Source of the DNA: Flavivirga aquatica
GTDB lineage: Bacteria; Bacteroidota; Bacteroidia; Flavobacteriales; Flavobacteriaceae
Direction of reading: 5' to 3'
DNA: 64,000 nucleotides
Assembly: GCF_001747085.1 (NCBI RefSeq)
Contig: NZ_MDJD01000043.1
Coordinates: forward strand, 124,001-188,000
Part shown: piece after piece, positions 33,321 through 49,473 of the stretch
How positions within the stretch are numbered: position 1 is the first letter of the stretch
How the letters are laid out: each line of letters begins with the position of its first letter
Notes under the pieces: generated by a model
Seen by the model: the letters and a program-made list of their open reading frames with translations, nothing else
What the model was told of the DNA's origin: nothing
Database searches by the model: none
Translations under genes and position numbers: made by a program

Positions 33321-34076
33321 TCAATTCTTAACACTTATATGTTTTAAATAATAGTTTTTTAAACCTTCGGGAGAAGCTCCAAACCATTTTTTAACATAAA
33401 TAGTCCAAAAAAAGTATTGTAATTTCCAAACACCATGTTTTCTGTATAACCTTGCAGATGTATAGAGTTTTTTATTAATTACAACAAACTCCTTTCTTGC
33501 GTATAATGCATTTATTAAAACGTTATCTTCATAAATAACATAACGTTCGTCAAAACCACCAATATTATTGAATAATGTTTTAGTTATAAATTGACTTTGG
33601 TCTCCACCTCGACAAGCTCTCCAGCTAAACCTAGTAAGCCAACTAGCTAATTTTAACCACCAATGGTTACTATCAAATTGCATTCTAAAACATCCAGCTT
33701 GATTGCCATTTTGTACTTCATTAATAATGCATTGATCAAAATTTTTAGGAGGAAAAGAATCAGCATGTAAAAAATATAAAATACTACCTGTAGCATGTTT
33801 AGTACCAGAATTCATTTGTTTAGCACGTCCTTTTTGCGAGTTAATAAGTTTTAAATAAGGAAAAAGAGAGTTAACGTTTTTTTCTTTAAATTCTTTGATC
33901 GTATTCGAAATAAAGCAAGAAATAATATCTTGAGACCCATCAGTGCTGCCTCCATCAACACAAATTATTTCTGAAATATTATCTTTTGAAGAATGATTTA
34001 AAAGATAATCTAGCAGATTAGAAATATTATCTGCTTCATTCAGCATTGGAATAATAATAGATATTTGGTGTTTCAT
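33321..34076 (-). CDS. TIGR04283 family (arsenosugar-associated) glycosyltransferase 2
   Basis: 251 aa from 34076 (MKHQISIIIPMLNEADNI); a further in-frame ATG at 34100 would add 8 residues. GT2 fold: SIIIPMLNEADN, CVDGGSTDGSQD, GRAKQMNSG (characteristic of this family), LHADSFPP, then GGDQSQFITK and GGFDERYVIYEDN. TIGR04283 members are found beside arsM and arsS and are thought to glycosylate the arsenoribose product; the enzymology is not settled. It lies about 2.5 kb from arsM, so it may belong to the same cluster. Confidence 0.85.
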   Translation of the reverse strand: MKHQISIIIPMLNEADNISNLLDYLLNHSSKDNISEIICVDGGSTDGSQDIISCFISNTIKEFKEKNVNSLFPYLKLINSQKGRAKQMNSGTKHATGSILYFLHADSFPPKNFDQCIINEVQNGNQAGCFRMQFDSNHWWLKLASWLTRFSWRACRGGDQSQFITKTLFNNIGGFDERYVIYEDNVLINALYARKEFVVINKKLYTSARLYRKHGVWKLQYFFWTIYVKKWFGASPEGLKNYYLKHISVKN

Positions 34077-34157
34077 GCTTTGTCTATTCTTGTGAGGCAA
34101 GAATTAGTTTTAATTGGCTTTATATGATTTTTATTTATTCAAGATTAAGAAAATAAT

Positions 34158-35009
34158 TCACTCATTCAAACTCCAATCATAATCTTTAAAATGTTTTTTT
34201 GCTTTATCCGAAATTTGAACAGATGTATATTTATTCAAAAACTGGATTAAAGATTGATTTTTGGTGAAATCTGAAGAAAACCATTTGAATATTTTTGACA
34301 GTTCTAGTGTGTTATTAGAAATGTTATTTCTCTTAGTGTCATTTAAAAACTGTTTGGTACTAGTTGTTAGTTGCTCTTCTAGATTTAATGCACTAAAGGC
34401 TTTGTTTTGTAATTTAGGACAAGAAAAAGAAGCACATACAATAGCAAAATGAATACGGGGTTCATTCATTTTTCGCAAAATTTCGTGTTCTATTTCGTTT
34501 AAATTATACCATTTGTCTCCTAGTTTCCAAAAACGTTGATCCCAAGGTTTTTTTATGTTTTTAATACTCTTTAATGGGTAATAACGCAAGATTAAATCAA
34601 TAGTCATGGCATTATATGCGTTAATCCAATATGCTAATTTGTCTTCTTTAGCCCAAGAAGTATTTGGCATGTTTTGGCTCAAAGTGGTTATATAGGTTGA
34701 TAGCAATTTTCTATCGTTTTTAAATGCTTTGTAGTTTACATTACCTTGGTTAGAAACGTGTTTTTGTAATAAAGTATTCCAAATATTGTGGCTAAATAAG
34801 TTTGATTCGTTGTTGTTTATAGTGGTGTCTTTTTTTAGTGATTTTCGAGGTTGAGGCGGTTCTTGAGGCTCTGGAGTATTGGCTTCAATAGCGCTGCTGT
34901 CTATAACAATTGAATTTTTAATAGGGGTAGGAGGTGTGTTAGAAACTATATGCTTTGTACTCGAACATGCGGTTATAAAAAAGATAATAAAGAATTGTAG
35001 ATATTTCAT
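34158..35009 (-). CDS. DUF547 domain lipoprotein, copy 2
   Basis: 283 aa; lipobox ITACS (about residue 15) and a Pro/Glu-rich linker to about residue 70. The DUF547 core follows: VNYKAFKNDRKLLSTYITTL, AYWINAYNAMTIDLILRYYP, INEIEHEILRKMNEPRIHFA-type block (here YNLNEIEHEI) and CASFSCPKLQNKAF, closing with LELSKIFKWFSSDF. The Cys pair lies in the same place as in the 25285 protein (CASFSCP versus CGAVGCP). It is in the same strand and gap as the hydroxylase and the arsenosugar genes, but the functional link is unproven. Confidence 0.85.
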   Translation of the reverse strand: MKYLQFFIIFFITACSSTKHIVSNTPPTPIKNSIVIDSSAIEANTPEPQEPPQPRKSLKKDTTINNNESNLFSHNIWNTLLQKHVSNQGNVNYKAFKNDRKLLSTYITTLSQNMPNTSWAKEDKLAYWINAYNAMTIDLILRYYPLKSIKNIKKPWDQRFWKLGDKWYNLNEIEHEILRKMNEPRIHFAIVCASFSCPKLQNKAFSALNLEEQLTTSTKQFLNDTKRNNISNNTLELSKIFKWFSSDFTKNQSLIQFLNKYTSVQISDKAKKHFKDYDWSLNE

Positions 35010-35025
35010 TTAAAAGTTTTAAGTT

Positions 35026-35931
35026 CTATTTACGCTTTCTAGAGAATATAGGATACATTTCTTGGGTTATAAAATCTTCAGGAAAAGTTTCATCATCTGT
35101 AAACCCTAATTCAATGTCTTTTCCACTATTTGGGATATAGTCAGTTTTAAAAATGTAATCCCAAATGCTAAGTGTTAGTCCATAATTAACACCAAACCTA
35201 ACATGTTTTGGCAATTGTTTTGCATGATGCCAAATATGCATTTTAGGATTGTTAAAGATGTATTTAAAAATACCATAATCCCACCCTAAGTTTGCATGGT
35301 TTAAATGGCCAATAATAATTGCGAAAAAATAAACAATAGAGACGTCCTTTGCGTTGTAATTTCCAATGATTGAGATAGGAATGTAAAGTAAAGATTTGTA
35401 AACAACAGGTTCCATCCAATGGTAGCGTAAATGCGCAGCAAACCCCATTTCTTTTACAGAGTGATGTATTTTGTGGAAATTCCATAGAAAGGGTATACGG
35501 TGTAGTAATCTATGCGTATTCCATTGCACAAAATCTGAAACTAAAAAAAATATTAATAAACCTAGCCATTTTGGTAAATCATCAACATCAAAAAGCTGGA
35601 AGCTATAAATAGATAAGCCAATACTAGTTAATAGGTCATTAAAAATTTGGGCAACAGTATTTGATAAAGCAATTAAAATAATAAGATTTAGTAGAAAGAA
35701 ATTAAAGAACATATAGAAAATGTCTAACCAAAAATCTTTTCTAAAAATAGATTGTTTTTTTCGCCAAGGAAATACTATTTCAAGCGCCCATACTAATAAA
35801 GAAATAACAATTAAACCATAAAAATAGTTATCCCATTGATTTTGAAAAAAGAGCTCTTGTTTGAGGTAATTCCAGTAACCCGAATAGGAATTTTTTATAA
35901 GATTTATATAGTTGTTCATGCTTATATTCAT
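35026..35931 (-). CDS. Sterol desaturase / fatty acid hydroxylase family membrane protein
   Basis: 301 aa, four or more membrane helices. The di-iron histidine motifs of the FA_hydroxylase family are present: HRLLH, FHKIHHS, and the late HIWHHAKQ, with a further HLNH. These integral enzymes hydroxylate or desaturate lipids with oxygen. The substrate cannot be told. Divergent from it is an Mpo1-like gene (36033), a family that acts on 2-hydroxy fatty acids in yeast, so a 2-hydroxy-lipid pathway is possible (inference). Confidence 0.88.
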   Translation of the reverse strand: MNISMNNYINLIKNSYSGYWNYLKQELFFQNQWDNYFYGLIVISLLVWALEIVFPWRKKQSIFRKDFWLDIFYMFFNFFLLNLIILIALSNTVAQIFNDLLTSIGLSIYSFQLFDVDDLPKWLGLLIFFLVSDFVQWNTHRLLHRIPFLWNFHKIHHSVKEMGFAAHLRYHWMEPVVYKSLLYIPISIIGNYNAKDVSIVYFFAIIIGHLNHANLGWDYGIFKYIFNNPKMHIWHHAKQLPKHVRFGVNYGLTLSIWDYIFKTDYIPNSGKDIELGFTDDETFPEDFITQEMYPIFSRKRK

Positions 35932-36032: not shown

Positions 36033-36527
36033 ATGAAAACAATGCGAAAAATAGAAATTTTACTAAGTGAATATGGAGAAAGTCATCAAACACCATTTAA
36101 TAAAAAAGTTCATTATTTTTGTGTGCCAGCTATTTTTTTTAGTCTTATAGGTTTGCTAGCTTGTATTCCACTAAGCGGATTACTTAATGGTATAATGCCT
36201 GTTTGGATTACCTCTTATATGCATATTGGATCATTGGCAATTGTTTTGGGACTTATGTATTATTTGCGTTTATCTTTTGTACTTTTTATGGGAATGTTAG
36301 TGTTTTCTTTATTAGCACTTGTAGGAATTAATAAAATTGCAAGTCTAGATCTCGCACCGCTTTGGGCTATTATGCTTGTTATTTTTGCTGTAGCTTGGAT
36401 AATGCAATTTATTGGGCATAATCATGAAGGGAAAAAACCATCATTTTTAAAAGATGTACAATTTTTAATGATTGGTCCTGCATGGACTATGAGTCATCTT
36501 TTTAAAAGCCTTAAAATTAAATTTTAA
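36033..36527 (+). CDS. Mpo1-like (DUF962) membrane protein
   Basis: 164 aa, four membrane helices. The family signature YGESHQTPFNKKVHYFCVPA at the start and QFIGHNHEGKKPSFLKD near the end are present, with the histidines of the Mpo1 dioxygenase fold (His in KKVHYF and HNH). In yeast Mpo1 cleaves 2-hydroxy fatty acids by iron-dependent alpha-oxidation; bacterial members are uncharacterised. It sits between arsM and the hydroxylase gene on the opposite strand. Confidence 0.85.
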   Translation: MKTMRKIEILLSEYGESHQTPFNKKVHYFCVPAIFFSLIGLLACIPLSGLLNGIMPVWITSYMHIGSLAIVLGLMYYLRLSFVLFMGMLVFSLLALVGINKIASLDLAPLWAIMLVIFAVAWIMQFIGHNHEGKKPSFLKDVQFLMIGPAWTMSHLFKSLKIKF

Positions 36528-36534
36528 AATAAAA

Positions 36535-36587: not shown

Positions 36588-37556
36588 TTAGCAACATCCG
36601 CCACCGTCATAATGATAAGTAGATTTACTAATGTAAATATCATCTCTATTTAGGTCTGCTATAGCTCCTGCTGTTTTATCACAAATAGCTAAAGGTTGAT
36701 TTTTTAATAAAATATGTCCTTTTTTATCATCAAAGTAATCTTCATCACCGTAATAAATAGCAGCTTTACCAGTAAAAATACAAGGACCGTCTTCAGGCAT
36801 TGGGTCTTTAATAGCAGCAACTTCGATAGATTCTATATAAATTAACTCATCAGTTGGGTAATTTTTAGGGTCTAAAACTCTATAAGGCTTACGAGCACGA
36901 ATTTCAATAGTTCCAAAACCAGCATCAGTTAATGCTTTTACATATTCAGCTATTGGCAAGCTTCCACTTAAGCATAATGCGCGCAACCTATCATCATTAC
37001 GTAACTCATCATTCATGGGTTGTTCGCATGTAGGATCACTCATAACTAAACGACCGTGTGGTTTTAAAACACGATGCATTTCTTCTATAGCTTTCTTTAA
37101 ATCTTCAGCCTTAAAAATGTTGAATAAACAGTTTTGTGCAGCAACATCTATGCTATTATCTTCAACAGGAAGATTCATAGCATCCCCTTTTTTAAGATCT
37201 ACAAACTCACTTTTAAACCAGTCGTTTTGCGCTTCTGCTTCTAGAAAGTTTTTTCTAGAGGCTTCTAGCATTTCATCAACAACATCAACACCAACTATAC
37301 CACCTTTTTGACGATTAAAATATGAGAATTGTAATAACTCCATACCACCACCAACGCCTACATATAGCATTTTTGGGTTATTAGTTAAATCACGAGCGTG
37401 TACAGTACTACCACATCCGTAATTCATCTCTTGCATTATTTTAGGGATTTTTAATCCTGGTAATTCCCAAATTGGGTTTGTCGTACAGCATAAACCAACA
37501 TCTGGTGTAAGTGCAGCTTCTTTATACACATCATGTGTAGCATCTAAATAACTCAT
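36588..37556 (-). CDS. arsM: Arsenosugar-type arsenite methyltransferase
   Basis: 322 aa. It methylates arsenite to methyl- and dimethylarsenicals with SAM. Seen: SAM motif I LYVGVGGGMELLQF (about 64-77), VGVDVVDEML, and the post-I QNCLFNIFKA with Cys143. Cysteines at 23, 24, 48, 177, 195, 259 and 292 provide thiol ligands for As(III), and the protein ends GGGCC. This longer form with LCCTTNP at the start is the one found with ArsS. It is the last gene of the minus-strand cluster. No arsR, arsenate reductase or efflux pump is seen in the window. Confidence 0.92.
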   Translation of the reverse strand: MSYLDATHDVYKEAALTPDVGLCCTTNPIWELPGLKIPKIMQEMNYGCGSTVHARDLTNNPKMLYVGVGGGMELLQFSYFNRQKGGIVGVDVVDEMLEASRKNFLEAEAQNDWFKSEFVDLKKGDAMNLPVEDNSIDVAAQNCLFNIFKAEDLKKAIEEMHRVLKPHGRLVMSDPTCEQPMNDELRNDDRLRALCLSGSLPIAEYVKALTDAGFGTIEIRARKPYRVLDPKNYPTDELIYIESIEVAAIKDPMPEDGPCIFTGKAAIYYGDEDYFDDKKGHILLKNQPLAICDKTAGAIADLNRDDIYISKSTYHYDGGGCC

Positions 37557-37627: not shown

Positions 37628-38440
37628 TTATACTGTTTTAATTAATTCTTTAAAGAGTGTTATCATGTTAGGCTCTGCTTTAGATGCCATAGCAATAATT
37701 TCACTTATATCAACAGGTTTTAAATTGTCTGGATCACACTCATCTGTTAAAACAGATACTGCTGCTGCCTTTAATTTTAAATGGTTTGCTACTATTATTT
37801 CTGGAACAGTACTCATGCCTACAGCATCTGCTCCAATTATTTTAAGCATTCTATATTCTGCTCTGGTTTCTAATTGCGGACCAAAAACACTAGCGTAAAC
37901 ACCTTTGTGTAATGTTATATTATTAGCCTTAGCAATGCTTTTAAATTTAGAATTAATTTCTGCATTATAAGGTGCACTCATATCTGTAAAACGCTCTCCT
38001 AATTTTTCAACATCTTTAAAAGCTAAAGGGGAATTTCCTTGAAGGTTTATATGATCATCAATAAGCATTAATTCACCTTTTTTAAAGTTGAGGTTAATAG
38101 CTCCCGAAGCATTAGAAACTAGTAAGGTTTTAATACCTAATTTTTCCATAATACGAACAGGATAGGTGACGTCTTGGAGTGTATAGCCTTCATAAAGATG
38201 AAAACGCCCTTGCATGACGATAACTTTTCGTCCTTCTAGAATACCATAAATAAGTTTGCCTTTATGAAATTCGACTGTAGCTGTTGGGAAATTAGGAATA
38301 TGGTTGTAACTAACTTCTTTTAAAACCTCTATTTCGTTTATAAATTGACCTAAGCCTGTACCTAAAATAATTCCTATTTCAGGGGTATCAAAACCTTTGT
38401 TTTTTAAAAAATCGGTAGTTTCGTTTATAAATTTTAGCAT
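37628..38440 (-). CDS. Purine nucleoside phosphorylase
   Basis: 270 aa, the trimeric low-mass PNP family. Seen: IGIILGTGLGQF (phosphate loop), MQGRFHLYEGYTLQDVTYPV, VSNASGAIN and EYRMLKIIGADAVGMSTVPE with the purine-site residues, closing VSVLTDECDP. It splits purine nucleosides with phosphate to a free base and a ribose 1-phosphate. Beside arsM and arsS the likely job is to remove adenine from the arsenic-bearing deoxyadenosine product, which would yield a 5-arsino-ribose 1-phosphate for the glycosyltransferases (inference from pathway logic). Confidence 0.9.
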   Translation of the reverse strand: MLKFINETTDFLKNKGFDTPEIGIILGTGLGQFINEIEVLKEVSYNHIPNFPTATVEFHKGKLIYGILEGRKVIVMQGRFHLYEGYTLQDVTYPVRIMEKLGIKTLLVSNASGAINLNFKKGELMLIDDHINLQGNSPLAFKDVEKLGERFTDMSAPYNAEINSKFKSIAKANNITLHKGVYASVFGPQLETRAEYRMLKIIGADAVGMSTVPEIIVANHLKLKAAAVSVLTDECDPDNLKPVDISEIIAMASKAEPNMITLFKELIKTV

Positions 38441-38456: not shown

Positions 38457-39200
38457 TTAGCGTTTAATCAATTTTTTAATGATACTTTGATTTGCGCTTT
38501 TAATTTCCACTAAATATACACCAGAATTTAAATTAGATAAAGAAAATGATTGTTTTTTTAATGATGTTTTTTCTACAGATTTAACCTGATTTCCTAGTAT
38601 GTTGTATATATTTATAGATAAGGGTGCTTGCGTATCGTTACGTACTTCAAACGCATCAATTGTTGGGTTAGGGTATAGGGTAATATTTTCGCTAAGGGTA
38701 TTGCTCTCTATATTTAAAAGAGTACAGTTTGAAGGATTAAATGGTGTAAATTTCCCAAAATCCCAAAATTGATTAAATTGTAAACAATAAAATAAAATAC
38801 GATCGTAGTCTTCAATTTTATCTCCTCCAGAAATATTAACAGTAAAAGACTTTGCGCCATTTTGAGGTATAACTGGTACACATCTGGTGCAACCTACTAA
38901 ACCAAATTCTATATGTTCTAAAGTTGAAATTTGAGCAGATCTCAAGTCGGCATCAGACATTCCTTTAGATTTTACTAAATACGCTCTAATATCTGGGCCA
39001 GAAGCTGTTTTAAAGTTTGCGCCTAAATTTAAGCGAATGGTATTGTTGTTTTCTAAAGTAATATCTACATCTCCAGTAATATTATAAGAAGAAATATTTT
39101 GATTGTTACCAAAACTGTTAGCAGGAACGGTACATTGTGAAAATCCGTATTGGATTAAAAGTAAAAAATTTAAGAATAGTAATGCTTTTTTCATTTTCAT
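38457..39200 (-). CDS. DM13-domain secreted protein with T9SS sorting domain
   Basis: 247 aa from 39200 (a start 2 codons later is equally good); the longer open frame up to 39260 would run into the neighbouring glycosyltransferase gene. Signal peptide ends at YGFSQC. The DM13 core is clear: ISSYNITGDVDITLENNNTI, LNLGANFKTASGPDIRAYLV and DYDRILFYCLQFNQFWDFG, the Cys being the conserved one of DM13. C-terminal residues about 170-247 are a T9SS type A sorting domain (LYPNPTIDAFEV, GVYLVEIKS). It is exported to the cell surface. DM13 is proposed as a redox domain; its role here is unknown. Confidence 0.88.
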   Translation of the reverse strand: MKMKKALLFLNFLLLIQYGFSQCTVPANSFGNNQNISSYNITGDVDITLENNNTIRLNLGANFKTASGPDIRAYLVKSKGMSDADLRSAQISTLEHIEFGLVGCTRCVPVIPQNGAKSFTVNISGGDKIEDYDRILFYCLQFNQFWDFGKFTPFNPSNCTLLNIESNTLSENITLYPNPTIDAFEVRNDTQAPLSINIYNILGNQVKSVEKTSLKKQSFSLSNLNSGVYLVEIKSANQSIIKKLIKR

Positions 39201-39208
39201 AGTAGTTT

Positions 39209-39814
39209 TTAGGTTAAAAAATTTTTGACAAAAAAGGGAATGTCTTTTATATCTTCCCAAGTATCTATGTCGTTTTTTTTATCTAAAAATTTCACTGAAG
39301 TTGTATTTAAATCTGTTAAAGTTTTTTCTAATACAGAAGAAGTGCCCCAAGCTTTGTTTTTAAAAGCTTCTGGATGTAATACATTCATGCCTAGTAAATA
39401 ATAACCACCATCTTCGGCAGGGCCAATGACTACATCATGAGATTCTAGTTGTTTATATGCTTCTTCAATGGTTTGCGCATTTAAATCATATAAGTCGCTG
39501 CCAATAATTACTACCTTATTATAATTTGCATTTAATAATTCTGTAAATGCATGTTGCATGCGTTCTCCTAAATCTTCGCCTTTTTGAAGTTTTTTGTTGA
39601 AGAATTTAGTATCCCATATATCATTATCGATAATGTTTTCAGAATAGAATACAAATCTATTAGTGTCTACTGCTTTAGAAATATCTGCGGTATGTTGTAA
39701 AAGAAATTTATATATATCTAATGCAGTTTGATCTCCAACGGTTTTTGCTAAACGTGTTTTACACTTACCTAGTTCAGGGTTTCTTGTAAATACAATTAAT
39801 GCATTTTCACTCAT
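39209..39814 (-). CDS. TIGR04282 family (arsenosugar-associated) nucleotidyl/glycosyltransferase
   Basis: 201 aa. DUF2064 / GT-A-like fold with IVFTRNPELGKCKTRLAK at the start, GEDLGERMQHAF, VVIIGSDLYDL with the metal-binding Asp, and VIGPAEDGGYYLLGM. The family occurs with arsM and arsS in many phyla and is named for arsenosugar biosynthesis, with its exact reaction unproved. It overlaps the rhodanese gene by 8 bases. A second, diverged member lies at 47185-47871. Confidence 0.88.
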   Translation of the reverse strand: MSENALIVFTRNPELGKCKTRLAKTVGDQTALDIYKFLLQHTADISKAVDTNRFVFYSENIIDNDIWDTKFFNKKLQKGEDLGERMQHAFTELLNANYNKVVIIGSDLYDLNAQTIEEAYKQLESHDVVIGPAEDGGYYLLGMNVLHPEAFKNKAWGTSSVLEKTLTDLNTTSVKFLDKKNDIDTWEDIKDIPFFVKNFLT

Positions 39815-40319
39815 TTATATTGTTTTTGGGATATACTTTTTTACCGGCTTTTAGCCATTTGCTCCATTCGTACGAAAAGGTATGAATACTGTCTGTTGCT
39901 TTTTCTTTTTCATTGTAAACAGAAAAGCCATTATTTTTCCATTCAAAAATACCACCATACAAGTTTTTAACATTTGTATATCCAGCTTTTTTAAGTTTGT
40001 GTGAAATCGTTTCCGACCTAATCCCTAGAGAACAATAGACAACAATTAAAGTATCTTTTTTTTGAATTTGTTTCTTAATGTTTTTCACTTTAAAATGATC
40101 GTATCCTACAAAAACAGCATCTTTAAGGTGACTTACTTTATACTCATTAGCTTCTCTAGCATCTAAAAGTATTGCCTTAATTTTTGGTGTTGCTAATTCT
40201 TGAGCAGTGATATAAGGTATTTTGTTGTTATTGTATTTATTTAATAAATCATCTAAAGTTTCTTGAGCTTGAAGCTGAGTAAATAATAGGACTGATGTAA
40301 AAAATAATAATAATTTCAT
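39807..40319 (-). CDS. Exported rhodanese-domain protein
   Basis: 170 aa from 40319 (MKLLLFFTSVLLFTQLQAQ, a signal peptide); the upstream in-frame start lies inside the metallophosphoesterase gene. The rhodanese fold follows: ITAQELATPKIKAILLDARE, VSHLKDAVFVGYDHF and the active loop IVVYCSLGIRSETISH with its catalytic Cys. Rhodaneses transfer sulphur or oxygen-group persulphides. In this cluster it could serve thiolation of arsenic or a thiol/thioarsenic step, which is speculation. Confidence 0.88.
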   Translation of the reverse strand: MKLLLFFTSVLLFTQLQAQETLDDLLNKYNNNKIPYITAQELATPKIKAILLDAREANEYKVSHLKDAVFVGYDHFKVKNIKKQIQKKDTLIVVYCSLGIRSETISHKLKKAGYTNVKNLYGGIFEWKNNGFSVYNEKEKATDSIHTFSYEWSKWLKAGKKVYPKNNINE

Positions 40320-40323: not shown

Positions 40324-41151
40324 TTATAGTTGAATTCCAAATCCTTGTAAACCACTTTCTATTGCTGGTAGAATTTCGGTGTTATCCCAAATACCAGTAA
40401 CAATAGTTCTTGCATATTCTTTGGGAAGGATGTCATTTTGCATAAGCTTGTTGGTCAATTTATAGTTATACTTTAAGGAGTGATGTTTAAAGTTAAATGT
40501 TTCATTTTTGTCATTTAAAATAGTATACCAAACATTTGGGTTACCATCATTAGCAGGCATGCCAATAACTCCAGGGTTAATCCACAGTTTGTTTTCTTTT
40601 TCATGATAAAAAGGGAGGCCACAATGTCCGCCTATAATAACATCACTTTTTGTAACATCAAAATTAGATTTTTTAGTGTTCCATGGCGTCGATTTAAAAA
40701 TAAATTCGGAAGTATTAAAGTATGAACCATGTACAATGGTTACTTTTTTTCCAGCATAATTAAATTCTATATGGTCTGGTAAAGGTTTTAAAAACTCTAA
40801 AGAGCTTTTAGAAAGTTTACTTTGCGCATAAGGATACCATTGTTGAGAAAACCCATCGCACCTTGAGCCTTTTTTAAAATCGCAACCACAATCTTCGGCT
40901 TCATTACTTAATTGTATTTCTACATTACCAGCAATGCTTTTTGCATGCCAAAGTTTAAAGAGTTGTACGGTTTCTTCGGGTTGCGAGCAATAACCAACAA
41001 TGTCTCCTGTACAAATACAGTTTTCGGGTAATATGTTTTCCGATTCTGCAACACGCTTTAAAGCTTCTAAAGCTTGCAGGTTACTGTAAACGCCTCCAAA
41101 AAGTAATACCTTTCCAGATAATTTTCCTAGATGTTCTATTTTTTTATCCAT
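40324..41151 (-). CDS. Metallophosphoesterase-fold protein with altered metal site and Cys-rich insertion
   Basis: 275 aa. The calcineurin-like order is kept: residues 18-24 FGGVYSN replace the usual DxHGN, then CTGDIVGYC (47-55), GNVE (75-78) in place of GNHE, HGS (141-143) and GGHCGLP (174-180). The first Asp and two His are thus missing, so the metal site must be changed or lost. A segment DCGCDFKKGSRCDGFSQQWY (87-106) adds three cysteines. I recall a proteobacterial family with the same alterations beside arsenosugar genes. Its role may be binding rather than hydrolysis. Confidence 0.85.
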   Translation of the reverse strand: MDKKIEHLGKLSGKVLLFGGVYSNLQALEALKRVAESENILPENCICTGDIVGYCSQPEETVQLFKLWHAKSIAGNVEIQLSNEAEDCGCDFKKGSRCDGFSQQWYPYAQSKLSKSSLEFLKPLPDHIEFNYAGKKVTIVHGSYFNTSEFIFKSTPWNTKKSNFDVTKSDVIIGGHCGLPFYHEKENKLWINPGVIGMPANDGNPNVWYTILNDKNETFNFKHHSLKYNYKLTNKLMQNDILPKEYARTIVTGIWDNTEILPAIESGLQGFGIQL

Positions 41152-42482
41152 TTTGATAATTTAATAGGTAATAAATATATTATGATACAACTTAACACGC
41201 CCCAAACATTAACCCAAAGTAAGCTGGCGTATTTTCCTTGTGTAAATATGAATGATTTTGGAAATACTCCAAACACTAAAGTAAATCCAAAAAGTAGTCC
41301 GCAAATAACACTTAAATAGAAACTAATTTTGGGAACCTTTATATTCCAAAATAAAAAGGCTGGTGTTAACCCAATAACCATAGTTCCAGAAATTGTTGTT
41401 GCAGATAAAATTTCAGCATTAAAAAAAATGGGCAGTGTTCCTAGAATAGCAACAGTAGCCATTGATGCTCTACCAAAGGTTAGCGTGTTACCTAAATTTA
41501 AATCTATAGCTAATAATTTTGAAAATGATGAAAACGTAGAATCTAAAGTAGATGCAGCAGAGGTAATCATAATAAAATTAATAATTAAAAGAATAACAAC
41601 ACCAAAGGCTTTACCAACTTCTACAGCTGCTTGACCTTGCATGCCTTGTATTTTAGCAAATACTCCAACAAGGCTAAATAAAACAATGCATAAACCGCCA
41701 AAAACACTTGCAAAAAGAAAGCTTTTTAAAGTGGTTTTTGGAGTACTTATAAAAGCTCTATCTGTTAATACAGGATCATGAAATGGATAGCTAAACGATT
41801 GAATAATGGCTGCAAAAAATAAATTTAGACCTAACTCGAAGCTCCAAGTTCCTGAGGTAACAATGTTTTTAGCTGTGAAATTTTCAACAGAAAAAATGTT
41901 CCATAAAATAACGATTAATAGCACTGAAAATAGTCCCATTTGGATAACATCTGTAAATATAGAACTACTTAAACCGCCTTTTATAGCATAAGCTAAAGTT
42001 AGAAGTGTAAATACAATTATAGACCAGTAGTAAGGAGAACTGCCTTGTGCTCCAAAATAACTACCAATAACCATAGTGTTACTCCATATTTCATTAAATA
42101 ACCTTATGGCTATTAATATTGAAAACAATGCCATGGCGCCTTTGCCAAATTTTGTGGTTAAAAATTGGTGTATACTTTTAAAATTACCTTTGGTACGTAA
42201 TTGATAAAGTAATACACCAGCAACTGCAAACGATAAGTAATAACCTGCATAGGCAACTCCACCAACAATACCAAAACTTAAGCCTAGATTAGCTGCATTG
42301 GTGATGCTTTTTGCAAAAATCCATGAAATAATTAAACTACCTGTTAACACAAAAGTATTAGGTGGCTTTAGTTTTTTTGTAGCTCTAAAAAATTGATTTT
42401 TAGATTTTGCTAAAGGAGACATTAAAAACAATATCAAACTCGATACGATAATTAATAGCCATTGCCAGTTAATTGTTTCCAT
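41136..42482 (-). CDS. Sodium:solute symporter (SSS family)
   Basis: 448 aa, about 12 to 13 membrane helices of the SSS fold, with GGVAYAGYYLSFAVAGVL and a late STLDSTFSSFSK helix (the Na2-site-like Ser/Thr block). It couples solute uptake to sodium entry in the cytoplasmic membrane. It lies between susD and the metallophosphoesterase gene (16-base overlap at one side), so it probably continues the import path of the SusC/SusD pair. Substrate unknown; a pathway-linked sugar, nucleoside or arsenical are options. Confidence 0.85.
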   Translation of the reverse strand: METINWQWLLIIVSSLILFLMSPLAKSKNQFFRATKKLKPPNTFVLTGSLIISWIFAKSITNAANLGLSFGIVGGVAYAGYYLSFAVAGVLLYQLRTKGNFKSIHQFLTTKFGKGAMALFSILIAIRLFNEIWSNTMVIGSYFGAQGSSPYYWSIIVFTLLTLAYAIKGGLSSSIFTDVIQMGLFSVLLIVILWNIFSVENFTAKNIVTSGTWSFELGLNLFFAAIIQSFSYPFHDPVLTDRAFISTPKTTLKSFLFASVFGGLCIVLFSLVGVFAKIQGMQGQAAVEVGKAFGVVILLIINFIMITSAASTLDSTFSSFSKLLAIDLNLGNTLTFGRASMATVAILGTLPIFFNAEILSATTISGTMVIGLTPAFLFWNIKVPKISFYLSVICGLLFGFTLVFGVFPKSFIFTQGKYASLLWVNVWGVLSCIIIYLLPIKLSKWIKK

Positions 42483-42488: not shown

Positions 42489-43922
42489 TTATTCATTCCA
42501 CCAAACAGGAACGTTAATACTGTTATTATCTGTTGTAGCTGCTGCCTTAGCATAATTTTCGGCATTTAAAGCTTCCTCTTCTGCTGGATAAGGCATTCTT
42601 GTTGGAATTAAGTTGTTATTTAAACTTGCAGAAATGGTTTTTAATTCTGGAAAGCCAGTTCTTCTATATTCCACCCAACTTTCGTAACCATTAATAAGGT
42701 TAGCAATCCATTTTTGTGTAATAATTTGCTGTAAAGGTGTTGTTCCTGTAGCATTGTAATTGGCATTTCCAGAAAGGTAATTTGCTGGTAATTCAGTATT
42801 CCAATATTCAAAAGCTAATAGTACTCCAGTTTCATATAATGTTTGAGCATCTGCTGTAATAAAATTTTTGGCGGCAGCTTCTGCTAATGCAAAGTGAACT
42901 TCCCATGCTGTAATAAAATTAGCGTCTAAAGTAGAGGTGTCTTCTCTAAATGCTGTGCCAGCTAATGAATAATCGGCTAAAGTAATAGATGTTGAGGTTG
43001 CATCTATACCGTTTAATAATCCATTAAATTCTCCAGAAGCTGCATTTGGTGCAGGTTTAAATAGTGTGTTAATTCTTGTATCGTTTAAACCAGTTAAAAT
43101 GTTTTCCATGGTTTTAGATAGAACAAAATTATTAAAATCGCCTACACGTAATTGTGCTAATCTAAAACTATTTGGGTCTGAATTTGTAAAGTTGAAAATA
43201 GCATTTTGAGCATTGGTTTTTATATAATTATCGTTATTGAAAATAGATTGTAATTCTGCCGAAACATCTATTTTATTTGAAATTCTTAAAAGATGTTTAA
43301 TTTTTAAGGCATTTGCAAATTGAATCCATGATTGTAAATCACCATTAAATAAAATATCGCCTTGTAATGAAATGGCATCGGTATAATTTTCTATAGCAAT
43401 AATGCCTTTGTTTAAATTATCTAGAATGCCTCCTTCATTCATATAAATACTTTCTTGCGTGTCATATTTAGGAGTTACTGTTCCGTTAAAAGCTTCAAAA
43501 TATGGAACGTCTCCAAATAAATCTGTTAAACCAGCAGCTATATAAGCTTTTAATATTAGAGCAGGACCTTCATAAACTTTAAAGGCATCTATTGTTCTAG
43601 ATTGATTTAAAATAATTTCATTGTCACGTAAATTGGTGTAGAATATAGACCAAGGGTTTCCGCCTAATTGTGGAGATTTAAGTGCATGACGGTCAAATAA
43701 GTTGAAATCTAAAGCAGTTCTGTGTTGTGCTAATAAATCGCCAGCAACAAAACCTTCGTAACTCATTTCTTCGCCATAGTTGTAAATAACTTGAGTAAGT
43801 AATAAACTAGGTTGTACCGAAACGGGCGCATTGGGATTTGTATTAATGGCTTCAAAGTCTTTTGTACAACTAGTAGTTGCTAGAAGGCTTAAAATTGTGA
43901 ATATATATATAATGTTTTTCAT
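42489..43922 (-). CDS. SusD/RagB-like outer-membrane lipoprotein
   Basis: 477 aa; lipobox ATTSCT (about residue 19), then KDFEAINTNPNAP, the start of the SusD-like_2 family, and the late NLINGYESWVEYRRTGFPEL with ARTMPYPAEEEALN-type closing (here PTRMPYPAEEEALN). It caps the SusC barrel at 43933 and binds the substrate outside the cell. No glycan enzymes are nearby, so this pair may take up something other than polysaccharide. Confidence 0.93.
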   Translation of the reverse strand: MKNIIYIFTILSLLATTSCTKDFEAINTNPNAPVSVQPSLLLTQVIYNYGEEMSYEGFVAGDLLAQHRTALDFNLFDRHALKSPQLGGNPWSIFYTNLRDNEIILNQSRTIDAFKVYEGPALILKAYIAAGLTDLFGDVPYFEAFNGTVTPKYDTQESIYMNEGGILDNLNKGIIAIENYTDAISLQGDILFNGDLQSWIQFANALKIKHLLRISNKIDVSAELQSIFNNDNYIKTNAQNAIFNFTNSDPNSFRLAQLRVGDFNNFVLSKTMENILTGLNDTRINTLFKPAPNAASGEFNGLLNGIDATSTSITLADYSLAGTAFREDTSTLDANFITAWEVHFALAEAAAKNFITADAQTLYETGVLLAFEYWNTELPANYLSGNANYNATGTTPLQQIITQKWIANLINGYESWVEYRRTGFPELKTISASLNNNLIPTRMPYPAEEEALNAENYAKAAATTDNNSINVPVWWNE

Positions 43923-43932: not shown

Positions 43933-46900
43933 TTAAAAGTTTAATCCTGCTTTAAATCCGAAACTTCTAGTTGTTGCATAACTTAAGTCTTCTACACCGC
44001 TAACAAAACCGTTACCTTGTACAGCAATTTGTTCTGGATCGAAGTGTGGGTTTTCGGTAATAGCAAAAAGATTATTTCCTGTAATAGATAAACTTAAGTC
44101 AGCGCCTTTTTTTAGACCTAAGAAGCCATTTTTTAATTTAAAATCGTATCCAATTGAAAATTGGCGTAGTTTTAAGAAAGAAGCATCGTATACATTATTT
44201 TCTTCATGATTTCTATCGTAAAATTGGCGGTAGTAACTTTCTGCAGATACAGAAACAGTATTAGGTTGCCCTGTTGTTTGTTTTACACCTTGGGCTACAA
44301 TACCAGAAGTTGGTCTAAAAGCTGTTTCGGCTAGTTGCCCGCCCACATTACCTAAAGCACGTGTTCTAGATACAATTTCGCCACCTTGTCTCCAATCAAA
44401 TAAAAAGTTTAAGTTCCAGTTTTTATAATTAAAATTATTATTCCAACCTAGTGTGAAATCTGGATTGTAATTACCTAATTTTTTTAAGTTACTATCTGCT
44501 ATATATCTACCATTATCGTCAATAATAAACTCGCCATTATCATTTTTTAAATAGCCTGTTCCATAAAAATCTCCAATACGTCCGCCTTCTTCTACTTGAA
44601 ACCAAACGGTTTGGTTAGCACTATCGTAAATTCTGCTGTAAGCTAAAGTTAAGCGACCTGCTTCTTGAGGTAAATTTTTAATAGTTGAACGGTTGGTTGC
44701 AAAATTAAAAGTGGTATTCCATTTAAAATTTTCATTTTTAATAGGTGTTACTCCAAGAATAATTTCAACACCTTGTGTGTTTACTTTTCCACCATTAACA
44801 ACTTGTTGGTTGTAACCCGATGATATGGTTATGGGTAATGATATAATTTGATCTTTAGTTGTGGCATTATAATATGTAAAGTCAAAACTTAAAAGGTCTT
44901 TAAAAAAGCGTAAATCGGCACCTACTTCATAACTTGTTGTTTGTTCTGGTTTTAAATTAGCGTTTGGAATAAAATCTTGATCGCTAAATGTTGGTTGTCC
45001 GTTAAAAGGTGTTTGAGATACAAAAGCACCAGAAGTTTGGTATGGACTAGTATCATTTCCAACTTGAGCTACACTGGCACGTAATTTTGCAAATGAAAAT
45101 ATACTTGGTAGTTCTGTTGCATTTGATAAAACAAAACTGGTTGAAACTGAAGGGTAAAAGAAAGAAGTACCACTAACAGAAAAAGGAGTAGCTAAAGCAC
45201 TAGACCAATCGTTTCTACCTGTAATATCTAAAAATAAGAAGTTTTTATAACCAAATTTTGCAATACCGTATATTGAGTTGATTCGTTTTTTACTTTCAAA
45301 TTGAAAGGCTTCGATAGGGGAAGCTGCATTGTTTAGATTAAAGATTCCTGGTTGTGCTAAATTTACAGTTTGTAATTGTTTTGTGGATGCAGTTTGGTCT
45401 AAACGATTTCCACCTAGTGAGACATCAAAAGAAATGTTGTTAAACGTATTGTTGTAATTAATTAAGAAATCTGTATTTACTTCTCTGTATTTTACATCAT
45501 GTTCTGCATAACCTCCATTTTTAAAACGGTTACTGCTAAAGTTTCTTCTAAATTGGCGTGTTTCGCTACTGTAATCCATTCCAGATCTTAAAGAAACACT
45601 TAAATGGTTTGTAAGTTGTTGTTTTAAAGAAATGTTTCCAAATATACGATCACGCTCAAATGAGTTTCTGTTTTCTAATAAAATAAAATATGGATTATCA
45701 AAAAAGGTATAGTTAAATGAATATTGTTGTATGCCTTCTAATCCTGGTTGCCAGTAATTCCTTAAACTGTTTGTGTTTAATGAACGTGATCCCCAAGCTA
45801 CTAATGAATAATTAACGTTTTCACTACCATAACCGTTTGACGGTCTGTTATCGCTATTTGAATTTACATAACTAAAAGATGTTGCAATATTTGTTTTTTC
45901 TGAAGGTTTAAAATTAAGTTTAGCAGAAATGGTTTGTCTGGCTAAGTTTACGCCAGGAATAATAGATTCACTTCTTAAATCTGTAAATGATAATCTGTAA
46001 TTTCCAGAGTTAAACCCGTTAGAAATAGCAACATTGTTAGTGGTGGTAACTCCCGTTTTATAAAAATCTTTTAGATTGTTAGGGTTCGAGTTAAAAGGAG
46101 TTGCTGTGATAGGTAAACCATTGTAAAGAGCTGTATCACCTCCACGAACAGTGTTCCCATTAGGCAATTGTACAGGGCTATCAAATTGAGGGATTAAAAT
46201 ACCAGCATCTAAACGTGGTCCCCAAGAGTAGGTAATGTTATCGCTAATTCCTGCACCAAGCCCATCTATAAATTCAAATTTTCCAGATTGACCTTGTCCA
46301 TATTCGTTTTGAAATTCGGGTAATTTAAAAGCTGAGTCTATAGAAATTGAGGTATTTATGTTAACACTAAAGCCTTTCTTTTTACTACCATCTTTAGTTT
46401 TAATAACAATTACACCGTTTGAAGCTCTGGTACCATAAAGTGCTGCGGCACTTGGACCTTTTAAAACAGTAACAGATTCAATATCGTCTGGGTTTACTTC
46501 CATAGCGCCATTACCAAAGTCAATTTCTTGAAATCCAGCGGCTGCTTCGTTAGTTGTATTAAATATGGTTTCGTTATTAATAGGAATACCGTCTACTACA
46601 AAAAGTGGGTTGTTGTTAGAGAAAGAAGATTCTCCTCGAATGGTTATTTTAGATGAAGATCCAACACCTGTTGCTCCTTGTGTAACTGTAACTCCTGCTA
46701 GTTTTCCTTGTAAGTTATCAAGAAAATTAACTGTTTTTACTTTTGTTAAGCTTTCAGATTTTATGTTTTGTACTACATAACCAAGTTCTTTGGTTTCTCT
46801 TTCTAGTCCTAATGCGGTAACAACTATTTGGTCTAAACTTGTAATGTCTTCTTTTAAGGCAATATTAATTACGGAAGCATTTCCAATTGTTATAATTTGT

Positions 46901-47124
46901 GTTTCGTAACCTAGATATGAGAATTTTAATGGACTTGATTTAGAGGATACTTGAATAGTGTATTTTCCGTTTTCATTAGAGATTGTTCCATTGTTATTGT
47001 TGGTTATATTAACAAAAGGTAATGGAGTGCCGTTGGATGCATCTGTTATTGTTCCTGTAATAGTTATTTGAGCATGAGCTATACCTGCAAAGGCAAGCAT
47101 CATGTAAAATATTATGTGCTTCAT
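43933..47124 (-). CDS. SusC/RagA-like TonB-dependent receptor
   Basis: 1063 aa, full length. Signal peptide about 1-18, CarboxypepD_reg-like domain about 20-105 (TITGTITDASNGTPLPFVNI), TonB box region ITSLDQIVVTALG, a plug with LFVVDGIPI, VTVLKGPSAAALYG and ASNGVIVIKTK, then a 22-strand barrel ending FGFKAGLNF. It lies directly after the arsS/second-TIGR04282 genes in the arsenosugar region with only 60 bases between, so it is probably co-transcribed with them. The inverted repeat ATCTGAA (47154-47160) / TTCAGAT (47168-47174) lies in that gap. Confidence 0.94.
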   Translation of the reverse strand: MKHIIFYMMLAFAGIAHAQITITGTITDASNGTPLPFVNITNNNNGTISNENGKYTIQVSSKSSPLKFSYLGYETQIITIGNASVINIALKEDITSLDQIVVTALGLERETKELGYVVQNIKSESLTKVKTVNFLDNLQGKLAGVTVTQGATGVGSSSKITIRGESSFSNNNPLFVVDGIPINNETIFNTTNEAAAGFQEIDFGNGAMEVNPDDIESVTVLKGPSAAALYGTRASNGVIVIKTKDGSKKKGFSVNINTSISIDSAFKLPEFQNEYGQGQSGKFEFIDGLGAGISDNITYSWGPRLDAGILIPQFDSPVQLPNGNTVRGGDTALYNGLPITATPFNSNPNNLKDFYKTGVTTTNNVAISNGFNSGNYRLSFTDLRSESIIPGVNLARQTISAKLNFKPSEKTNIATSFSYVNSNSDNRPSNGYGSENVNYSLVAWGSRSLNTNSLRNYWQPGLEGIQQYSFNYTFFDNPYFILLENRNSFERDRIFGNISLKQQLTNHLSVSLRSGMDYSSETRQFRRNFSSNRFKNGGYAEHDVKYREVNTDFLINYNNTFNNISFDVSLGGNRLDQTASTKQLQTVNLAQPGIFNLNNAASPIEAFQFESKKRINSIYGIAKFGYKNFLFLDITGRNDWSSALATPFSVSGTSFFYPSVSTSFVLSNATELPSIFSFAKLRASVAQVGNDTSPYQTSGAFVSQTPFNGQPTFSDQDFIPNANLKPEQTTSYEVGADLRFFKDLLSFDFTYYNATTKDQIISLPITISSGYNQQVVNGGKVNTQGVEIILGVTPIKNENFKWNTTFNFATNRSTIKNLPQEAGRLTLAYSRIYDSANQTVWFQVEEGGRIGDFYGTGYLKNDNGEFIIDDNGRYIADSNLKKLGNYNPDFTLGWNNNFNYKNWNLNFLFDWRQGGEIVSRTRALGNVGGQLAETAFRPTSGIVAQGVKQTTGQPNTVSVSAESYYRQFYDRNHEENNVYDASFLKLRQFSIGYDFKLKNGFLGLKKGADLSLSITGNNLFAITENPHFDPEQIAVQGNGFVSGVEDLSYATTRSFGFKAGLNF

Positions 47125-47184: not shown

Positions 47185-47871
47185 TTAGATATGATTTGTA
47201 ATAGGAGAGCCTTTATTAAATTGAAGGTTTAATATGGGGTTTTTAATAGAAATATAAAAAGTTGAAATAATTCTTTTTTCTAGAAAAAGATATAATTTAA
47301 GAAGCTTTTTTATGGTTTTTGAAAGCGTTCTAAAATTATTGATAATTGTTTTAACATCTGCTGCAGAATCAATATCTGTTAATGTTTCTAAATAGCAAAT
47401 GTTTATTTTTTTTGAAGCATTTAATTTAGAAATACTTCTATTTAATTGAGAGGTTTGCCAGGGTAATTTTAAAAATATATCTGCATTAAATTGAGATTTT
47501 TTAAGTCCCATAAGGTAAAAACCACCATCTGTAGATGGCCCTAAAACAAGGTTGTGCTTTTGTAATAGGTGAGCTGTTTTAAGAATATGTTTTGTAGTTA
47601 AGTGTGGGGTATCGTTCCCTATGGTTATAACTGTATTATATCCTTTGTTGTATGTTGTTTGTATGGCGTTGGTAAAACGTTCTCCAAAAGAATTGCCAAC
47701 TTGTTGATTTTCGGAAAAAATAAAATAAGGTAGCCCAGTTTTTTTTATAATACTTAATGTACGAGCATTAAGTGCTGCAAATACATCTTTAGAATATTGA
47801 AATGGTTTTGAAACCGCTTCTTTTTCGGCAGAATTCGCAAAAATTAATATGGCTACTTTACCTTCTTTCAT
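47185..47871 (-). CDS. TIGR04282-like protein, diverged second copy
   Basis: 228 aa. The C-terminal half of the motif set is intact (GNDTPHL, GPSTDGGFYLMGL, PWQTSQLNRS, DIDSAADV), matching the protein at 39209-39814. The N-terminal glycine-rich motif RNPELGKCKTRL of the partner is replaced by FANSAEKEAVSKPF, so the usual nucleotide-binding loop is lost. It may form a heteromer with the complete copy or have a changed role. It lies 2 bases after arsS. Confidence 0.82.
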   Translation of the reverse strand: MKEGKVAILIFANSAEKEAVSKPFQYSKDVFAALNARTLSIIKKTGLPYFIFSENQQVGNSFGERFTNAIQTTYNKGYNTVITIGNDTPHLTTKHILKTAHLLQKHNLVLGPSTDGGFYLMGLKKSQFNADIFLKLPWQTSQLNRSISKLNASKKINICYLETLTDIDSAADVKTIINNFRTLSKTIKKLLKLYLFLEKRIISTFYISIKNPILNLQFNKGSPITNHI

Positions 47872-47873
47872 AA

Positions 47874-48929
47874 TTATGCAACAACACCTTGACAGCTACT
47901 TCCTGCTCCAGCTGTACAGCCATAACAGTGTTGAGAAATAACAATGTTTCGGCCTTCTAATAGTTCTTCATTATATTCTGAAATGTGTTTTGCTTTGCTA
48001 TTTACTGGCAGACCTAGCATTTGATTAAAGTCGCAGTCGAATAAATAGCCATCCCAACTTATTGATAAGGTGTTTGTGCACATTACGTTTTCTACTGCGG
48101 CTGGGTTGTAGGCTTCAACTAAAGCATACATGTAATCTTCGTAATTTTCTGAGGCTATTAAATAATCTAAAAATCTGGAGATTGGTAAATTAGTAATGGC
48201 AAATAAATTATGAAATTGAATGCTAAAATCTTCCATTAACCCTTTTTTAAAATCTTTTTCCATGGCCATTTGGTCTCCTGGTAAAAAGGCTCCAGATGGG
48301 TTGTAAACTAAATCTAAACGTAAGTCGCTATCTGGCATACCGTAACCTACGGCGTTTAATTCTTGAAGGGCTTTTATGGATTTATCGAAAACACCATCGC
48401 CACGTTGTTTATCTGTTTTACCTCGAGTCCAATGTGGCATTGAGCTAACTACGTGTACATTGTGTTTTTTAAAGAATTCTGGTAAATCGTAATATTTTTT
48501 ATTGGCTCTAATTATGGTTAGGTTAGAGCGTACAATAAAATCTTTAATACCGGCTTTAGCGGCTTCTTCTACAAACCATCTAAAATCTGGATTCATTTCT
48601 GGTGCGCCTCCTGTTAAATCTAAGGTATGCGCTCCTGTGTTTTTTATAACTTCCAGGCATTGTTGCATGGTTTCGCGGGTCATGATTTCTTTTCTATCTG
48701 GACCGGCATCGACATGGCAATGCTCGCAAACTTGGTTACACATGTAGCCAACGTTTATTTGAAGTATTTCTAACTTTTTAGCTTTTAATGGAAACTGATT
48801 AGTTTCGGCTATTTTATCTTTAAATGTTGGTAATTCGCCATTTTGGAAAATACCGTTTGATAAAATTTGCAGTTGTCTATTGCTATTTGCTAAATCGCTT
48901 TCGCGTTTTTTTAAGGACTTTGTTGCCAT
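47874..48929 (-). CDS. arsS: Arsenosugar biosynthesis radical SAM protein ArsS
   Basis: 351 aa. Radical SAM motif CNQVCEHCHVDAGP with Cys64, Cys68 and Cys71 for the 4Fe-4S cluster, GGAPEMNP SAM-contact, and a C-terminal DUF3641-type region with CTNTLSISWDGYLFDCDFNQ and HCYGCTAGAGSSCQG. ArsS joins the 5'-deoxyadenosyl group of SAM to dimethylarsenite, forming the arsenic-carbon bond of arsenosugars. It is separated from the AhpD-like gene upstream by a REP-like repeat. Confidence 0.93.
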   Translation of the reverse strand: MATKSLKKRESDLANSNRQLQILSNGIFQNGELPTFKDKIAETNQFPLKAKKLEILQINVGYMCNQVCEHCHVDAGPDRKEIMTRETMQQCLEVIKNTGAHTLDLTGGAPEMNPDFRWFVEEAAKAGIKDFIVRSNLTIIRANKKYYDLPEFFKKHNVHVVSSMPHWTRGKTDKQRGDGVFDKSIKALQELNAVGYGMPDSDLRLDLVYNPSGAFLPGDQMAMEKDFKKGLMEDFSIQFHNLFAITNLPISRFLDYLIASENYEDYMYALVEAYNPAAVENVMCTNTLSISWDGYLFDCDFNQMLGLPVNSKAKHISEYNEELLEGRNIVISQHCYGCTAGAGSSCQGVVA

Positions 48930-48976
48930 TAATTAGTTTTTGTCTTTTTTGTTCGTGTAAAAAAATATAGTTTCTG

Positions 48977-49134
48977 GCTTTGCGTTAGGGATTGAAGCGG
49001 CATCCTTTTTAAATTAAACTAAAAATTAATTTGGTTTTAGCTTTAAGTAGTTGGTAGATAACCATGTTGTTGGATGCTTACAATAATGTTTTAAAAAGAT
49101 AAAGCGGAAAGCCCGACCCTTGGGTAACGCCCTT
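48977..49134. repeat. REP-like folded intergenic repeat, copy 2
   Basis: Begins GGCTTTGCGTTAGGGATTG, AAGCGGCATCCTTTTT and ends AAAGCGGAAAGCCCGACCCT, then TGGGTAACGCCC. It matches copy 1 (18854-18945) in both outer blocks, with a longer unrelated centre of about 70 bases. GGCTT pairs with AAGCC and GCGTTA with TAACGC. It lies inside the arsenosugar region, between the AhpD-like gene and arsS. Confidence 0.7.
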
Positions 49135-49137
49135 ATA

Positions 49138-49473
49138 CTAGCCGTCTAATTTATTTACTTTATTCATCATTTGTACGCCATGTACTAGGGTTGCTCCACT
49201 TTTTATGGCTGCTCCTACATGTATGGCTTCCATCATTTCTTCTTTAGTAACGCCGCGTTGTAAGCCGTCTTTAGTGTAGGCGTCTATGCAATAAGGGCAT
49301 TGTTCTGTGTGGGCAACGGCTAAGGCAATTAACGATTTTTCTCTGGCCGTAAGTGCGCCTTCTTCGAAAACTTTACCGTAGTACTCGAAAAACTTGTTGC
49401 CTAATTCTTCATTCCATTCTGTGATTTTTCCAAATTTTCTTAGGTCTGATGGATCGTAATATGTTTTTTGCAT
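49138..49473 (-). CDS. Arsenosugar-associated AhpD/CMD-like protein
   Basis: 111 aa, carboxymuconolactone-decarboxylase/AhpD fold. The helix TAREKSLIALAVAHTEQCPY and CPYCIDAYTKDG carry the CxxC (Cys-Pro-Tyr-Cys) peroxidase-like pair; AIHVGAAIKSGATLVHG completes the family pattern. It is annotated in similar clusters as an arsenosugar-biosynthesis-associated peroxidase-like protein. It is the first gene of the minus-strand cluster, behind a possible operator (49507-49542). Confidence 0.88.
   Translation of the reverse strand: MQKTYYDPSDLRKFGKITEWNEELGNKFFEYYGKVFEEGALTAREKSLIALAVAHTEQCPYCIDAYTKDGLQRGVTKEEMMEAIHVGAAIKSGATLVHGVQMMNKVNKLDG

Follow-up and report, generated by a model that had tools for sequence, protein, structure and literature searches.

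An import cassette tied to arsS in Flavivirga aquatica and its relatives suggests uptake of ready-methylated arsenic for arsenosugar synthesis

Introduction

It has long been asked why organisms make arsenosugars; detoxification of inorganic arsenic is the reason usually given. A locus of Flavivirga aquatica (Flavobacteriaceae) puts the question in another form: why should genes predicted to build an arsenosugar share one run with genes for an outer-membrane transporter and a predicted sodium symporter? The locus occupies positions 33321–49473 of a stretch of 64,000 nucleotides (contig NZ_MDJD01000043.1 of assembly GCF_001747085.1, positions 124,001–188,000, forward strand), hereafter the window, to which all coordinates refer. 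The novel core of the locus, beside arsS, is a compact susC-susD-SSS-MPE cassette, usually led by a gene that we denote cofC2. SSS is a putative, divergent Na+/solute symporter and MPE a cysteine-containing protein with a metallophosphoesterase (calcineurin-like) fold. We see the whole as an arsenosugar locus to which an importer has been added, the remaining core being the known arsenosugar pathway.

The original prediction, made from the window's letters, had offered arsenical uptake as one possible role of the import genes, and we regard this as the best reading. Because the cassette is almost confined to genomes with the radical S-adenosylmethionine enzyme ArsS, often genomes without their own arsenite methyltransferase (ArsM), the data suggest that such bacteria import ready-methylated arsenic for arsenosugar synthesis.

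Results and discussion

The cassette belongs with arsS

The cassette lies on the minus strand and comprises SusC, a TonB-dependent outer-membrane transporter (43933–47124; TIGR04056, 620 bits), SusD, a surface lipoprotein of the SusD-like_2 type (42489–43922; PF12771, 302 bits), SSS (41136–42482; assigned by TIGR00813 and PF00474 matches across its subfamily) and MPE (40324–41151; assigned by profile, structure model and residue alignment). ArsS itself (47874–48929, minus strand) scores 441.5 bits against TIGR04167 (cut-off 300). None of SusC, SusD, SSS and MPE matches an NCBIfam family named for the arsenosugar pathway. A literature search, with most subscription literature outside its reach, found no paper naming both arsenosugar and TonB, and none of the titles listed was about such an arsenical importer.

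Among 393 genomes of the order, 61 (the window's genome included) have ArsS over the cut-off. SSS (genome-wide threshold E <=1e-60) occurs in 22 genomes, 21 of them with ArsS, i.e. in 21/61 ArsS-positive versus 1/332 ArsS-negative genomes (Fisher p = 7e-18). MPE at a score of at least 432 bits is found in exactly the same 21 of the 393 genomes, with the next match at 116 bits. The SusD subfamily (at least 678 bits; next match 530 bits) again marks exactly these 21 among the 80 genomes searched for it, namely all 61 ArsS-positive and 19 ArsS-negative ones. The association of SSS, MPE and SusD with ArsS exceeds chance, and genome-wide co-occurrence thus supports the earlier view that SusCD and SSS belong with arsS.

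That view had been coupled to a caveat: absence of these genes beside arsS in most relatives was to be taken as local chance. Read literally, absence is the majority state, since 40 of the 61 ArsS-positive genomes have neither SSS nor cassette, and this would suit an unrelated SusCD locus that happened to insert beside arsS. The converse count speaks differently: ArsS is carried by 21 of the 22 SSS genomes but by 61 of all 393, which shows that chance does not account for the link. Those counts, the two positions of the cassette relative to arsS, its presence in three further families and a gene fusion (see below) already contradict a local accident, which we consider scarcely credible.

We compared 140 arsS loci, made up of 60 neighbourhoods from the ArsS-positive genomes of the order other than the window's own (set A) and 80 named loci, from which a second sample (set B) was drawn. 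Because flanks stop 17 kb downstream in set A and 10 kb in set B, the counts for distant genes are too low. SSS and MPE are adjacent in 40 of the 140 loci; SusC and SusD lie upstream of them in 34, and in 4 further loci once the stretch is extended, while L101 and L112 have SSS-MPE without SusCD near arsS. The cassette mostly sits downstream of arsS, commonly between arsS and a rhodanese gene, but lies upstream of (ahpD-)arsS in four genomes (G314, G216, G228 and G160); the order susC-susD-sss-mpe is kept in either position. It adjoins arsS in 20 of the 21 genomes, with arsM intervening in G236; the exception is G254, whose draft of about 350 contigs has the parts on separate contigs. Distances in the SSS and ArsS trees agree (r = 0.84, 39 loci), so that cassette and arsS have for the most part moved together.

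In a phylum-wide sample of 257 genomes, five contained SSS: two were already known, and the other three represent further families outside the order. Each of these three has ArsS, and two have the cassette adjacent to it, as susC-susD-sss-mpe/ahpD-arsS in G551 and facing ahpD-arsS in G562. The slash denotes a fusion: in L043, L046, L056 and L158, the last belonging to another family than the first three, the MPE frame runs on into a full TIGR04169 domain (143–196 bits). In the window this domain is a separate AhpD-like CxxC protein (49138–49473, minus strand; 193 bits, cut-off 120), and its cysteines C59 and C62 are invariant in 137/137 aligned sequences. The natural MPE-TIGR04169 fusion is strong evidence that the cassette and a pathway-associated protein act jointly.

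Cassette genomes often lack ArsM

The window encodes an arsenosugar-type ArsM (36588–37556, minus strand; NF038099, 576 bits, cut-off 400), but many relatives with the cassette do not. NF038099 exceeds its cut-off in 8/21 cassette-positive versus 34/40 cassette-negative ArsS-positive genomes (p = 3e-4), and any ArsM-like match at E <=1e-20 is found in 9/21 versus 38/40 (p = 1e-5). For set B, 21 of the 80 named loci were left out as records labelled as metagenome-assembled genomes; 50 of the 59 others were taken (all 17 cassette-positive and the first 33 of 42 cassette-negative) and 48 counted. L096, apparently the same contig as L050, was left out of the ArsM counts. Cassette status was read at the locus, and the absence of SSS was confirmed genome-wide in all 32 negatives. 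ArsM is present in 3/16 cassette-positive versus 29/32 cassette-negative members (p = 1e-6). Two of the three ArsM-less negatives have a weaker ArsM-like match and the third has ArsM split in two frames; for the Fisher test the split gene was taken as missing, for the tree tests as present. It belongs to Aquimarina agarivorans (L121, genome G664), where the split could stem from a sequencing error or mark a recent pseudogene.

The same pattern is seen within genera: ArsM is present in 1/8 cassette-positive versus 9/9 cassette-negative Winogradskyella, in 0/4 versus 2/2 Algibacter, and in 1/4 versus 7/7 members of a third genus (g3). Among named species, Winogradskyella thalassocola, W. eximia, Algibacter amylolyticus and A. 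pectinivorans carry the cassette and lack ArsM, whereas Algibacter luteus, W. jejuensis and Kordia algicida have ArsM and no cassette. In the three cassette genomes outside the order, no ArsM exceeds the cut-off. On the ArsS tree (109 tips), a Pagel-type test with a two-trait Markov model indicated dependence (likelihood ratio 30.3, p = 4e-6), as it did for set A (p = 0.011), set B (p = 2e-4) and with any ArsM-like match counted (p = 2e-7). All four fits give faster loss of ArsM where the cassette is present. In the combined and set A fits, moreover, the cassette is lost nearly exclusively in the presence of ArsM, the pattern that two routes to one substrate should give.

The TIGR04283 glycosyltransferase (33321–34100, minus strand; 223 bits, cut-off 182) served as a control and shows no such dependence, being present in 19/21 cassette-positive versus 29/40 cassette-negative genomes (p = 0.19; tree test p = 0.39). 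The pathway appears undecayed in cassette-positive genomes without ArsM, because TIGR04283 exceeds its cut-off in 12 of these 13 and eight of the nine ArsS cysteines (all except C91) are invariant across 141 sequences. In genus g3, TIGR04283 occurs in 3/4 cassette-positive versus 1/7 cassette-negative species, the opposite of the ArsM pattern there.

That 12 of the 21 cassette-positive genomes have no ArsM-like match at E <=1e-20 could also mean that ArsS has acquired a new, possibly non-arsenic substrate in such genomes, which the cassette imports. However, their ArsS proteins within the order are 65–93% identical to that of the window and share the same eight cysteines, and 11 genomes keep ArsM and the cassette together; we regard a change of ArsS substrate as very improbable.

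A route for imported arsenic

We propose, with a probability of roughly 0.55, that a pre-methylated arsenical enters through the cassette and supplies ArsS, so that ArsM becomes dispensable; both substrate and direction of transport are inferred. SusCD in the outer membrane and the sodium-coupled symporter in the inner membrane would bring in a methylated arsenical, which could be dimethylarsinate or an algae-derived dimethylarsinoyl compound. The MPE cysteine protein and the AhpD-like CxxC protein, sometimes one polypeptide, might then keep the arsenic in, or reduce it to, a trivalent dimethyl form for use by ArsS. ArsS would add a 5'-deoxyadenosyl group to the arsenic, after which PNP (purine nucleoside phosphorylase) and the TIGR04282 and TIGR04283 proteins would complete and transfer the arsenosugar. 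With such an import arm, a cell's own arsenite methyltransferase could be dispensed with, and would often be lost. That ArsS adenosylates arsenic was known before, as cited in PMC12159101.

Several observations weigh against this proposal. Two ArsS-positive genomes (G292 and G120) have neither the cassette nor any ArsM-like match, and the 11 genomes with both ArsM and the cassette include that of the window. In G457 the cassette and arsS are on different contigs, that of the cassette being 17 kb long, and G351 (L147) has a lone SSS orthologue with no ArsS, MPE or SusD subfamily member. (Another species of that genus, G236, has the cassette.) The set B fit gives no cassette loss, counting any ArsM-like match reverses the cassette-loss pattern, and the tree test on set A by itself reaches no more than moderate significance. 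The tree is of ArsS, not of species, and carries about 15 changes per trait. An unrelated arsenic methyltransferase may conceivably serve the genomes without ArsM. The structure model of SSS (mean pLDDT 45) was unusable. Finally, SusCD pairs usually take larger molecules, and dimethylarsinate is small. A SusCD-like precedent for a small molecule is NanOU, whose NanU component binds the free monosaccharide sialic acid (PMC3969230).

The ArsM data also bear on salvage, in which finished algal arsenosugars or arsenolipid head groups would be imported and re-used by the glycosyltransferase and envelope proteins, ArsS being kept for times without supply. Several hosts belong to Algibacter, Winogradskyella and Polaribacter, genera found with algae, and arsenosugars fall in the size range of sialic acid. 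Sialic acid is taken up through a SusCD-like pair (PMC3969230). Import of a finished sugar, however, should cost ArsS, not ArsM. Yet among the 25 SSS-bearing genomes from searches that made no selection for ArsS, 24 have the enzyme, and the L158 locus holds little beyond SusCD-SSS-MPE/AhpD-ArsS. We therefore consider salvage unlikely.

If a dedicated organoarsenical uptake system does supply arsenosugar synthesis from outside, arsenosugars would be a product for which these bacteria seek arsenic, not a by-product of detoxifying inorganic arsenic: a lineage that does not methylate arsenic itself but keeps ArsS and an importer would spend energy on acquiring it. The cassette would then point to marine recycling of methylated arsenic and provide a metagenome marker for it, and orphan SusCD, SSS and MPE subfamilies would gain a function.

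MPE, SSS and cofC2

MPE has the fold of 3rqz/SapH-type phosphoesterases, as judged from its structure model (Foldseek E 2.6e-12 to 3rqz; TM-score 0.68–0.70 to 3qfm), but lacks the full ligand set of both metal sites (DxH, GD, GNH, H, GHxH). By comparison with 3rqz, SDxH has become GGxY, GNH has become GNV and GHTH has become GHCG. Motif I thus loses its Asp and His, and the GNH His and second GHTH His are replaced as well. The replaced positions (G20, Y22, V77 and G178) are fixed in 45/45 sequences, as are D50, N76, H141 and H176 and four cysteines (Cys55, Cys88, Cys90 and Cys98), which set MPE apart from SapH and 3rqz. The lost ligands are mostly those of metal site 1 and the retained ones those of site 2, which MPE shares with these relatives. 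We rejected the idea of an ordinary phosphatase because the site 1 ligands are replaced in all 45. With site 2 retained, a mononuclear activity is conceivable, and our own reading is that MPE may be a mononuclear or thiol-metalloid binding protein, from which we infer possible arsenic binding. The mean pLDDT of the model is 76; because residues 91–100, beside Cys90 and including Cys98, fall below 50, we claim no cysteine-to-metal-site distances.

The window's SSS reaches only 34 bits against TIGR00813 (cut-off 184) and has no PF00474 match. In its subfamily, 8 of 10 members match PF00474 at E <=0.1 (best 2.3e-8) and all 10 match TIGR00813. A conserved SAASTLDS stretch is presumably linked to the sodium site. 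We treat the protein as a putative Na+-coupled symporter of the SSS family (TC 2.A.21).

The properties of these two proteins bear on another possibility, that the cassette imports some other ingredient (an acceptor, a phosphodiester head group or an unrelated nutrient) and is co-regulated with arsenosugar synthesis, ArsM being lost for reasons of niche. In its favour, nutrients are the usual cargo of SusCD and SSS, the SSS proteins of solved structure nearest in sequence carry choline and glucose, and the MPE fold derives from phosphoesterases. MPE, however, has lost conserved ligands and its fusion partner is an AhpD-like protein, and an imported co-ingredient does not predict that ArsM, rather than TIGR04283, goes missing with the cassette. 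We find this possibility rather unlikely. Our fuller picture is of an organoarsenical uptake system, dedicated and driven by TonB and Na+, that supplies arsenosugar synthesis from outside and in which a phosphoesterase fold has turned thiol arsenical carrier or reductase; we put it forward tentatively, at somewhat short of even odds.

The product of cofC2 (47185–47871, minus strand) matches TIGR04282 only over profile positions 70–189 (104.5 bits, cut-off 134). In the alignment the N-terminal GxxKTR motif is absent and the C-terminal NKGSP is conserved; below the cut-off and without the motif, cofC2 encodes a divergent, TIGR04282-like protein. We dropped it as a strict cassette member: it stands beside arsS without SusCD in L066, L116, L129 and L136, and it was undetected in the three cassette loci outside the order. 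The original prediction had listed TIGR04282 correctly but as one gene, where the window has two TIGR04282-like genes; it lacked cofC2, the lost metal site of MPE, the MPE-AhpD fusion and the ArsM anticorrelation.

Comparison with known systems

The window carries a predicted arsenosugar biosynthesis locus. Like the ArsM/ArsS pathway known from Synechocystis, it has NF038099, TIGR04167, TIGR04169, TIGR04282 and TIGR04283 proteins above their cut-offs. Unlike in that pathway, a TonB/Na+ import cassette is attached, which in relatives often coincides with the absence of ArsM. A SusC/SusD-like pair predicted to serve one small molecule recalls sialic-acid uptake by NanO/NanU in Bacteroidetes (PMC3969230); the proposed substrate differs, the NanT inner-membrane carriers described there belong to the major facilitator superfamily and not to SSS, and the present cassette is coupled to an arsenic-carbon enzyme. 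SusC and SusD stand side by side as in polysaccharide utilisation loci. However, because no glycoside hydrolase, lyase or sulfatase was found among the 20 proteins scanned (30969–51946), in line with the original remark that the import genes have no carbohydrate enzymes beside them, the cassette is not a polysaccharide utilisation locus.

Other genes of the locus

Open reading frames and family profile matches bear out the gene list originally given for 33321–49473. The minus-strand transcription order is TIGR04169 AhpD-like protein, ArsS, cofC2, SusC, SusD, SSS, MPE, rhodanese, TIGR04282, DM13 protein, PNP and ArsM. From arsS to arsM the genes are on a single strand, with spacings of at most 71 bases or overlapping called frames, consistent with one operon. 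ArsM is followed by a 656-base gap with a divergent Mpo1-like gene, then by a fatty-acid hydroxylase, a DUF547 protein and TIGR04283. Among named ArsS loci, the nearest belong to Algibacter, Winogradskyella, Flavivirga and other Flavobacteriaceae related to these.

The extended layout as a single system, as put forward in the original prediction, did not hold up, and we rejected it on the rarity of two genes and the lack of specificity of a third. Mpo1 (36033–36527, plus strand; PF06127) occurs on either strand in 0/60 set A and 2/80 named loci, i.e. in 2/140 (L094 and L131), and its presence is probably chance, not part of the system. The secreted DM13 protein with a type IX secretion tail (38457–39260, minus strand; domain match) is uncommon near arsS and loosely associated (17/140 loci). 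The di-iron fatty-acid/lipid hydroxylase (35026–35931, minus strand; PF04116) is present in 57/61 ArsS-positive genomes but is not specific, because 5/19 ArsS-negative genomes have it too. We likewise found no specific support for export or lipidation of arsenosugars, the other role proposed earlier.

Frequencies on the arsS strand, out of the 60 set A loci and the 80 named loci respectively, are AhpD 57 and 79, cofC 42 and 79, PNP 41 and 77, rhodanese 33 and 68, ArsM 35 and 51, DUF547 36 and 50, TIGR04283 23 and 44, fatty-acid hydroxylase 18 and 29, SSS and MPE 19 and 21 each, and DM13 5 and 12. PNP (37628–38440, minus strand) scores 340 bits against NF006054. The exported rhodanese (39807–40319, minus strand) scores 206 bits (cut-off 145) against the curated family NF045521; the gene is present as originally described, but its frame, open from 40355, probably starts at 40319. 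The family is named rhoda_near_glyco, which as we read it already points to such a neighbourhood and makes the rhodanese a known neighbour. A homologue of the DUF547 lipoprotein (34158–35009, minus strand; PF04784) lies on the arsS strand in 86/140 loci, a count confined to neighbourhoods and including paralogues down to 26% identity. In genus g3 it sits upstream of ahpD rather than beside the glycosyltransferase; this placement and its frequency hint at a real role.

A minus-strand scan of 33–51 kb with a Bacteroidetes-type promoter pattern gave no match directly upstream of ahpD or arsS; the only two matches lie at 50856, upstream of an acyl-CoA dehydrogenase gene, and at 50112, within the same gene. 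The TIGR04282 nucleotidyltransferase-like protein proper (cofC; 39209–39814, minus strand; 217 bits, cut-off 134) is only about 40% identical to those of the close relatives L063 and L068 and about 65% identical to those of L040 and L099, as if two cofC types replaced each other in place at this slot.

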